Assembly (NCBI RefSeq): GCF_024362525.1
Contig: NZ_CP101458.1
Span: 1,054,001 to 1,118,000 of the forward strand
Origin: Natrononativus amylolyticus
Lineage (GTDB): Archaea; Halobacteriota; Halobacteria; Halobacteriales; Natrialbaceae
Direction of reading: 5' to 3'
DNA: 64,000 nt
Below, piece by piece: positions 21,499 through 23,665 of this stretch (within the stretch, counting starts at the first letter, position 1; every line of letters begins with the position of its first letter). Made by a program: the position numbers and the translations under genes. Below the pieces are notes generated by a model that was not told the DNA's origin, made no database searches, and worked only from the letters and a program-made list of their open reading frames with translations.

Positions 21499-22434
21499 CT
21501 ACTCGAGGTCGCCGTTTACTTCCTCGCGTAGCGTGCCCATCTCGACGACTCGTTCGGCGTGGGCGTTGTGCTGGTGGATCGACTCGTCGTTGGACTGGCG
21601 CATCGAAACGACCGCGTCGTCGGCGAGGTGGTCGAAGCGGTCGGTGACGCCCTCCGCCATCGCACGCACGCAGTCCTCGACGAACTTCGCGTCGGCGTGG
21701 GCCTCGTAGGTCATGTGGTCCTCGTCGGGCCGCTTCGCGAGGTTGTAGATCCGCGCGCTCATCGAGTCGCGGGCGATGTCGATGATCTCGTTCAGGTCGA
21801 CCTCGGGGTCGCCGGCCGCCTCGACGGTGAGCGTGGCGTGACCGCGCTGGGAGTGTCCCGGCTGGGGGACCTCCTCGAGAAATCGGGTGATCGTCTCGCC
21901 GTCGACCTCGAGGTCCTCGAGGGTCTGTTTCGCGCGGGCGGCGGACATCCCCTGCGAGCAGGGACAGACCGTCATCCCGACGACGTGGGCGCCGATCTCC
22001 TCGCGGGTGCCCTCCTCGGTGGCCGTCGCCGAGGCGATGATATCGACGGTGTGCTGGGTTTCCTTATCGGAGGCGGGGGTCCGCTCGCGCTTGACGAACT
22101 CCGCTTCCATCGAAACCTCCGCTCTCGTGGTGTACTCGTGTTTCTCGAGCAGTCGCTCGGCGGCGTCGCCGCAGACGTCCTCGACGCGGTAGGCCTCCTC
22201 GCGGGTCGCCTCCTCCAAGATCTCGTCGATGACCTCCATGTTGCGGCTCATGTCCGCCCCCTTGCGCCAGGACGGGAGGTCGACGAACACCTCGAAGTCG
22301 GCCATGAGGACGATGGGGCGTTTCCCCTCGCGGGCGATCTTGACGAGTTTCTCGACGCCGGTGACGCCGACCTGGCTCAGGCCGACGGTGACGTCGGGTG
22401 CGGTCGCCTGAACGTCCGGCAGTTGCTTGCTCAT
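21499..22434 (-). CDS. mptA: GTP cyclohydrolase MptA (FolE2 family)
   Basis: This 311-residue enzyme opens GTP to a 7,8-dihydroneopterin cyclic phosphate in archaeal pterin synthesis (tetrahydromethanopterin/folate route) and, in haloarchaea, for archaeosine precursors. It begins [20 protein letters not shown]; the metal site is indicated by [12 protein letters not shown] (Cys157, Cys159) with His in IGAH and [13 protein letters not shown]. The start at 22434 is chosen because the upstream extension is basic. Its promoter lies just left of the first of three repeats described at 22511. It is linked in function to RaSEA (61204) through archaeosine. Confidence 0.93.
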
Positions 22435-22510: not shown

Positions 22511-22565
22511 TTCTTTAAGTGTCTCTGGTCACAAGGGAGAGCTATGAAGGGCTTTTCGCAGATCC
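22511..22565 (+). repeat. Promoter/start repeat, copy 1 (mini-[14 protein letters not shown])
   Basis: First of three near-identical units. TATA-like TTTAAG (22514-22519) lies 30 bases before ATG (22544), with the conserved block CTGGTCACAAGGGAGAGCT between them and AAGGGCTTTTCG after the start. The frame reads [11 protein letters not shown] and stops at 22577-22579. The geometry predicts a leaderless transcript. Confidence 0.8.
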
Positions 22566-22644
22566 CACAGTTCGAGTGAGCGGTGTGTACCGCACGGAGC
22601 GTGGCCGACTCGGGACGCGACGAGCCCGGGCCGCAACCGGCGGT

Positions 22645-22695
22645 CCTTTAAGTGCTTCTGGTCACAAGGGAAAGCTATGAAGGACTTTTGCGGGG
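22645..22695 (+). repeat. Promoter/start repeat, copy 2 (mini-ORF MKDFCGALDS...)
   Basis: Second unit: TTTAAG at 22647-22652, ATG at 22677, again 30 bases apart, with CTGGTCACAAGGGAAAGCT between. The open frame runs 42 codons and its TGA (22803-22805) overlaps the ATG of copy 3. The similarity fades after CTTTT, so the conserved unit is promoter plus the first few codons. Confidence 0.8.
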
Positions 22696-22769
22696 CGTTG
22701 GACTCGAGAGCGGCCGCGATACCCGGATCCCGCGGTCACTCACGCGCCACCGTGTCACTCGTCCGCACC

Positions 22770-22824
22770 CGTTTATGTTCCTCTGGTCACAAGGGAGAGC
22801 TATGAAGGGCTTTTCGCGGATACC
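22770..22824 (+). repeat. Promoter/start repeat, copy 3 (mini-ORF MKGFSRIPRPP...)
   Basis: Third unit: TTTATG at 22772-22777, ATG at 22802, the same 30-base spacing and the same CTGGTCACAAGGGAGAGCT block. The frame reads MKGFSRIP and continues to 26 codons, ending at 22880-22882. It is the copy closest to the RNA polymerase epsilon-like gene. Confidence 0.8.
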
Positions 22825-22895
22825 GCGTCCTCCGAGCGGCCGCGATCGGCGATCGCCGTTCCGATTAGTAGCATATACCTGATGTGTTGGGACGG

Positions 22896-22902
22896 CTTTA
22901 TC
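22896..22902 (+). promoter_or_regulatory. TATA-like box of the RNA polymerase epsilon-like gene
   Basis: CTTTATC lies about 29 bases before the ATG at 22928, giving a near-leaderless start. It is a separate promoter from the three repeats upstream, whose downstream effects would have to read through it. Confidence 0.5.
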
Positions 22903-22927: not shown

Positions 22928-23665
22928 ATGCAAGTCGATGGTGGGTCGCCCGAAACACCCTCCGAGTCGACCGTCGCCGGGTACGACGAGCCGCGTCGGC
23001 TCGAGACCCGCGCCGGCGCCGGCTCGCTCTCCCGGGCGGCCGCCCAGCGCGACGCGACGGTCCGCCGGTGGGGCGTCGTCACGCCGAGTGCGACGATCAT
23101 CGGGCGCGCGGCGTCGCCCGAGGCGGACCTCTCAGAGAGCATCCGCCGGCTCCACGACGAGCAACACACCGCGACGGCGGGCCACGCAGCGCGTGCCCAC
23201 CAGCTGGACCGGCTGCGGACGACGCAAGCGCTGTGTAACGCCCTCGAGGTCACCCCCTGGCAGCGCGACCTCGCGCTCGGAATCATGGACGAGATCGACC
23301 TCACCGAGTTCGGCAGCCAGCGCGCTATTCCGAAGGTCGCGCTGGTCGTGATTCGCCACGTCGTCGACGTCGACCGACGCCGATACTTCGGGCTGGACGA
23401 CCTCGACGCCGGGGCGCTCTCGGCCGACCGGATGGACGAGCTGTTCATCCAGTACCGCGCCCACGACATCACCGACGAGCCGGCGTTCAAGCGCCTCGCC
23501 GCCGAACACGGCCTCGAGACGACCAGCCTCAACCGACTCCGCCGGGTGCTGAAGAGCCAGCTCGAGGACGCCGACGGGCTGCCGGCGTACGGACGCAGCC
23601 CGAACCGCGATCCGAACCTCCCGAGTGTCACCGACCGCGAGTTCGAGGATGCCGCCGGAGAGTAG
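22928..23665 (+). CDS. Haloarchaeal RNA polymerase subunit epsilon-like protein
   Basis: A 245-residue protein with the stretch RRWGVVTPSATIIGR, then a cyclin-like helical core (TQALCNALEVTPWQRDLALG, LTEFGSQRAIPKVALVVIRH) and a C-terminal SPNRDPNLPSVTDREF tail. This matches the haloarchaeal protein annotated as DNA-directed RNA polymerase subunit epsilon, which resembles a cyclin fold of TFB. The name rests on my recollection of the family, not on a search. It would bind RNA polymerase or act as a transcription factor. Its upstream region carries three repeated promoter units. Confidence 0.6.
   Translation: MQVDGGSPETPSESTVAGYDEPRRLETRAGAGSLSRAAAQRDATVRRWGVVTPSATIIGRAASPEADLSESIRRLHDEQHTATAGHAARAHQLDRLRTTQALCNALEVTPWQRDLALGIMDEIDLTEFGSQRAIPKVALVVIRHVVDVDRRRYFGLDDLDAGALSADRMDELFIQYRAHDITDEPAFKRLAAEHGLETTSLNRLRRVLKSQLEDADGLPAYGRSPNRDPNLPSVTDREFEDAAGE

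Follow-up and report, generated by a model that had tools for sequence, protein, structure and literature searches.

Upstream of the gene for DNA-directed RNA polymerase subunit epsilon stand three tandem repeat units, members of a large family of intergenic elements in Halobacteria that is unannotated and previously unreported. Throughout this family we observed an element of fixed geometry that lies between genes, co-occurs almost one-to-one with epsilon, diverges together with it and carries covarying arms. From these features we infer, with a confidence slightly better than even, a class of promoters that depend on or are bound by epsilon and that would mostly yield short noncoding transcripts.

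The window, a 64,000-nucleotide stretch of the Natrononativus amylolyticus genome, contains a 53-nt repeat in three copies on the forward strand (22514-22566, 22647-22699 and 22772-22824), spaced by 133 and 125 bp; copies 2 and 3 are 75% and 91% identical to copy 1. Each copy includes a promoter-like block of 38 bases. In copy 1 (22514..22551), a TATA-like TTTAAGT (22514-22520) is followed by a specific block (22524-22543) and a predicted transcription start near A22544, and the stretches TGAA (22545-22548) and TTCG (22555-22558) would form the arms of a 5' hairpin. Copy 2 (22647..22684) has TTTAAGT at 22647-22653, a predicted start near A22677 and a weaker putative hairpin, TGAA-ggact-TTTG. 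Copy 3 (22772..22809) has TTTATGT at 22772-22778, a predicted start near A22802 and a putative hairpin TGAA-gggctt-TTCG. In all three units the box stands exactly 30 bases before an ATG. Further downstream, a more weakly conserved patch, GAGCGGCCGCGAT, lies at 22708..22720 (forward strand, +61 of unit 2) and recurs exactly at 22834..22846 (+62 of unit 3). The first-pass annotation had reported the three near-identical units, the distance from box to ATG and the translations of the mini-ORFs that follow, and all of these were correct. The conserved stretch it described is also real but longer than claimed: it extends from about -10 to +50, and weaker patches continue to about +75. A CTTTT run at 22552-22556, which in A-type units (see below) falls 8-12 bases past the predicted start, could cause early pausing or termination.

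A 26-base block from the repeat, searched with up to 3 mismatches, matched only three places in the whole 3.99-Mb genome, all of them in the array, and its reversed control matched none; the repeats are thus not a chance similarity. The first-pass annotation had proposed looking for the block next to epsilon in other haloarchaea. Of 392 related genomes, 74 contained it (reversed control, 1 match), including Natrinema, Natrialba, Natronococcus, Haloterrigena and other Natrialbaceae, and it was not missing upstream of all epsilon orthologues. From the related genomes we gathered 177 and later 386 distinct units. Their consensus, TTTAAGT-N2-YTCTGGYNACAAGGTNNAGMTAYGANGG(G), hardly varies between the TATA box and a point about 8 bases past the predicted start. 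The family alignment retains a weak signal at -10 to -1 and weaker patches out to about +75, among them AGCGAC/TAGCGAC-like patches at +60 to +75. When we searched with the downstream core alone, leaving out the TATA part and allowing up to 3 mismatches, a TATA-like box was present at the same offset in all 400 matches, as a perfect TTTAAGT in 368. This invariant distance rules out a TATA box that merely happens to lie beside an unrelated repeat, and the two parts therefore form a single composite site. The proposals that these are duplicated promoter-like units and that they share a sequence-specific site spanning the spacer between TATA box and start were both borne out.

Canonical haloarchaeal promoters combine a BRE (CGAAA), a TATA element (TTWT) and a -10 WW (PMC4983044). 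The element resembles them in that a TATA-like box precedes the predicted start by about 27-30 bases and an invariant AA occupies the -10 WW position. It differs from them in three respects: upstream of the box the family consensus lacks a CGAAA BRE and is instead pyrimidine-rich (..CGTTC), with no column from -6 to -1 rich in A; near-invariance extends over about 20 more bases, as far as +8; and the element is found only alongside epsilon.

We scored 392 related genomes for both the element and epsilon. Both were present in 163, the element alone in 1, epsilon alone in 17 and neither in 211, which places the element in 163 of 180 epsilon-positive but only 1 of 212 epsilon-negative genomes. 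The Fisher value for these counts takes no account of phylogeny. In the lone element-only genome (G160), the 5,937-base contig continues for 291 bases beyond its last element and breaks off where epsilon would be expected. Among the 17 epsilon-only genomes, 11 carry element variants with 4-8 mismatches beside epsilon, 2 have epsilon at the start of a contig, one (G339) showed no recognisable element at its epsilon locus, and 3 fell outside close inspection. The G339 locus (L209, G339:C2) shares its coordinates with the epsilon match on plasmid NZ_CP096020 of Halocatena salina. An in-frame stop interrupts the epsilon match there, possibly the sign of a decaying pair of epsilon and element, although such stops also occur at some element-bearing loci. 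Loss can be seen within a single genus, g6, in which three genomes without epsilon (G128, G164 and G377) have no elements and two with epsilon (G087 and G261) have 2 and 4. The viral contigs searched contained no epsilon, and neither they nor the phage records searched contained the element.

The sequences of element and gene also diverge together. Genera g6 and g19, which belong to family f1, group in the epsilon tree with genera of f7, f8 and f4, apart from the rest of f1, and their elements are of the TCRTAGTGA-like type found in f7 and f8. The mean epsilon distance of g6/g19 is 0.45 to the main f1 group and 0.31 to f7/f8; the corresponding mean element differences are 13.8 and 6.4 of 29 bases. 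Over 41 loci, a Mantel-type correlation of 0.51 was reached in none of 2000 permutations, a permutation scheme that ignores phylogeny. With one exception in element type (L214, f14), the variants thus seem to follow the epsilon gene tree against taxonomy. Such joint change is the pattern expected of a reader and its site, and it suggests that the elements are DNA sites on which epsilon acts, although shared ancestry accounts for part of both the co-occurrence and the co-divergence. The tie to the epsilon gene is in any case much stronger than the first-pass annotation had proposed.

In the window, the epsilon gene (22928..23665, forward strand, 245 aa) lies downstream of the array. Its homologues are annotated as DNA-directed RNA polymerase subunit epsilon (57-63% identity by tblastn), and it belongs to the same family as the halobacterial subunit OE_1279R. 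It has a TATA-like box of its own, CTTTAT at 22896..22901 on the same strand, about 30 bases before its ATG, which has the layout of a leaderless-type promoter; a box at this distance was also present in most of the relatives' epsilon loci inspected. The array is therefore not needed as the basic promoter of epsilon, and it is unlikely to be simply that promoter. In many Natrialbaceae (for example L022, L023 and L024), the epsilon mRNA is predicted to start at a position overlapped by a dyad, CTGTCTGAGCGACAG, possibly an operator. The divergent neighbour on the other side of the array, mptA (GTP cyclohydrolase MptA; 21499..22434, reverse strand), is probably not a component of the system. Between mptA and epsilon, many Natrialbaceae carry an RlaP-like gene (PF10127, RNA repair pathway DNA polymerase beta family) flanked by two element arrays (for example L083:4971-5888 and L081:5212-6141); this gene is missing from the window's locus.

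Elsewhere, elements occur singly or in head-to-tail arrays, in most cases spaced by 93-200 bp. Besides the epsilon locus, dispersed copies lie at unrelated sites: before GNAT-thiE-thiM, before a PRPP-synthase-like gene and near a TrkA_C/PhoU-domain gene. Taking genes as predicted by a GC3 rule, which makes these counts approximate, 18 of 299 copies overlapped a gene, and the 109 array-terminal copies outside the epsilon locus were followed by a co-directional gene in 79 cases and by a convergent one in 30. On plasmids with existing annotation no copy lay under an annotated gene, and at five of the eight non-epsilon plasmid loci viewed the element faced a convergent gene. In f17 genomes (for example at L218 and G142:C1:2746035-2747336), the epsilon gene has elements on either side that are directed towards it, and antisense transcription into its 3' end would be expected from some of them.

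What would such elements produce? The first-pass annotation had taken the start codon to belong to the conserved part and had suggested tiny peptides translated from leaderless ATGs. All three copies in the window do have an ATG where leaderless translation would be expected to begin. Among 327 nonredundant units, however, the trinucleotide at this position, counted 30 bases from the first base of the box, was ACG in 226 (69%), ATG in 87 (27%) and ATA in 11 (3%), and open frames after ATG were no longer than those after other trinucleotides. The mini-ORF reading is unsupported because ACG replaces ATG in most copies, and we regard related leaderless peptides as very improbable.

A different signal is present in the first predicted transcribed bases (+31 to +34, YGAN), which are complementary to a stretch within +37 to +51. 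The arms paired in 80%, 44% and 60% of units with A, C and G at +34, against 18%, 19% and 29% after shuffling, percentages that may be affected by descent among units of one arm type. Each arm type favours its own partner (CGAA/TTCG, CGAC/GTCG and CGAG/CTCG); if a G-U pair is allowed, CGAG can pair with the partner of the A type too, and CGAT with that of the C type. Covariation of this kind supports an RNA hairpin at the 5' end and hence transcription from near +30, although it would also be compatible with a DNA dyad. Downstream of the element, the RNA showed no excess folding energy in the windows tested (Z about 0). Unlike known structured RNA families, the element had no match in an Rfam search, which returned just one far-below-threshold match elsewhere. 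Because epsilon has its own promoter and many elements face convergent genes, most elements look like stand-alone starts of short noncoding transcripts with a small covarying hairpin at the 5' end. Position, orientation and covarying arms are consistent with a putative family of small RNA genes.

A mechanism can be outlined on this basis. TBP, perhaps with TFB, would bind the TTTAAGT box, and the invariant bases from the box to about +8 would be read either by epsilon, a subunit specific to haloarchaea, or by an RNA polymerase that contains it. The first transcribed base would be the A of A(C/T)G, 30 bases from the beginning of the box, or one close to it, and the products would be mostly short noncoding RNAs that open with a small hairpin. 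The stand-alone units producing them would be duplicated in tandem and concentrated near the epsilon gene, where they may provide feedback by sensing or titrating the epsilon-containing polymerase.

The elements could instead be an array of decoys or operators that bind epsilon or the polymerase containing it and yield no functional transcript, those near the gene titrating or repressing epsilon. This is unlikely, though less so than the other alternatives. It would account for the clustering around epsilon, including the inward-pointing copies on both sides in f17, for the strong conservation outside the TATA box and for the lack of a stable RNA fold. Against it, the invariant TATA distance, the -10 AA and the arms that covary past the start point resemble initiation, and stand-alone copies lie far from epsilon. 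We think it improbable that the elements are in general alternative promoters giving long leaders to the mRNAs of epsilon, RlaP, thiE/thiM, the PRPP-synthase-like gene and others. Copies often stand 100-250 bp ahead of epsilon, and some of the 79 co-directional terminal copies may indeed drive mRNAs, but the other 30 face convergent genes, epsilon already has a leaderless-type promoter, and in Haloferax volcanii 72% of transcripts are leaderless and long 5'-UTRs are scarce (PMC4983044).

The remaining alternatives concern the identity of the reader and the nature of the repeat. Correlation by itself is unable to name the reader, which might be some other factor simply co-inherited with epsilon; such a factor would have to explain why elements cluster at epsilon across many families and why their variants track its gene tree rather than taxonomy, and we give it slightly less credence than long-leader promoters. 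A selfish, MITE-like repeat spread without function is the least credible reading, to the point of being negligible. The elements are multi-copy, intergenic and present on plasmids too, as such a repeat might be, but no terminal inverted repeats bound the units in the window, the geometry stays fixed across large divergence, the element is absent where epsilon is absent, and none was found in viral contigs or phage records.

The favoured reading, promoters that depend on or are bound by epsilon, draws attention to the protein itself. According to PMC8305020, epsilon (OE_1279R, rpoeps; Madon and Zillig 1983 and Leffers 1989, as cited there) is an additional RNA polymerase subunit that some haloarchaea possess, Hbt. 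salinarum among them. Epsilon was reported in 1983 to enable Halobacterium RNA polymerase to transcribe native DNA; PMC8305020 notes that efficient transcription of native templates sets polymerase containing epsilon apart from polymerase lacking it, and calls the biological relevance of the subunit 'enigmatic'. The open-access literature searched described no cognate DNA element for epsilon and contained nothing on the element block or an epsilon-specific promoter. Pfam, PDB-sequence and profile comparisons placed epsilon in no DNA-binding family. It had no Pfam TFIIB match, and hhalign gave similarity to TFB cyclin repeats a probability of just 0.1-2%; homology to TFB is thus unsupported by sequence or profile comparison. 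AlphaFold models were of low confidence, with a pLDDT of 53 when the whole protein was modelled and of 64 for a core of residues 40-216. Foldseek searches with them returned many TFIIB, Brf and archaeal TFB chains, at best with probability 0.60 and E 0.7. TFIIB ranked first for the whole-protein model (7zs9 chain M, which we take to be TFIIB from the usual chain naming; probability 0.60) and third and fifth for the core model. We treat this weak signal of a TFIIB-like fold as a lead only. The window's genome also holds, besides seven two-repeat TFB genes, a 105-aa open frame with a TFIIB-domain match (G000:C1:1899365-1899595). A bolder version of the favoured reading, which we offer tentatively and consider less likely than not, gives epsilon a dedicated role in the initiation specificity of archaeal RNA polymerase: the subunit, which may be a diverged TFIIB-like protein with a single domain, would mark out a second class of promoters for a small-RNA family.

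Several known systems share features with this one. The presence of a bacterial sigma factor, an accessory polymerase subunit, predicts a particular, extended promoter sequence, and by analogy the presence of epsilon predicts a distinct, extended promoter-like element. Unlike sigma-factor promoters, the element is archaeal and keeps a TATA box; its recognition is putative, and we claim no kinship between epsilon and sigma. The tandem rRNA promoters of halophilic archaea are head-to-tail units about 100-130 bp apart, a layout and spacing that the element arrays resemble, which we regard as a lead; the elements differ in not lying upstream of rRNA and in having dispersed, stand-alone copies. Tandem paralogous sRNA genes are likewise multi-copy, stand-alone short units that share a promoter and 5' end, and the putative transcription units of the element are similarly multi-copy, stand-alone and short, with a common promoter-like block and predicted 5' end; they differ in lacking an Rfam match.

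An element that appears, vanishes and diverges with epsilon gives this subunit a concrete candidate target, makes its role testable and provides a ready reporter assay. If the reading is confirmed, promoter choice in archaea would extend beyond TBP and TFB paralogues alone, and unannotated short transcription units would be visible in about 40% of the sampled haloarchaeal genomes. If epsilon is indeed an initiation-specificity subunit, it would be a functional archaeal counterpart of an alternative sigma factor together with its regulon.
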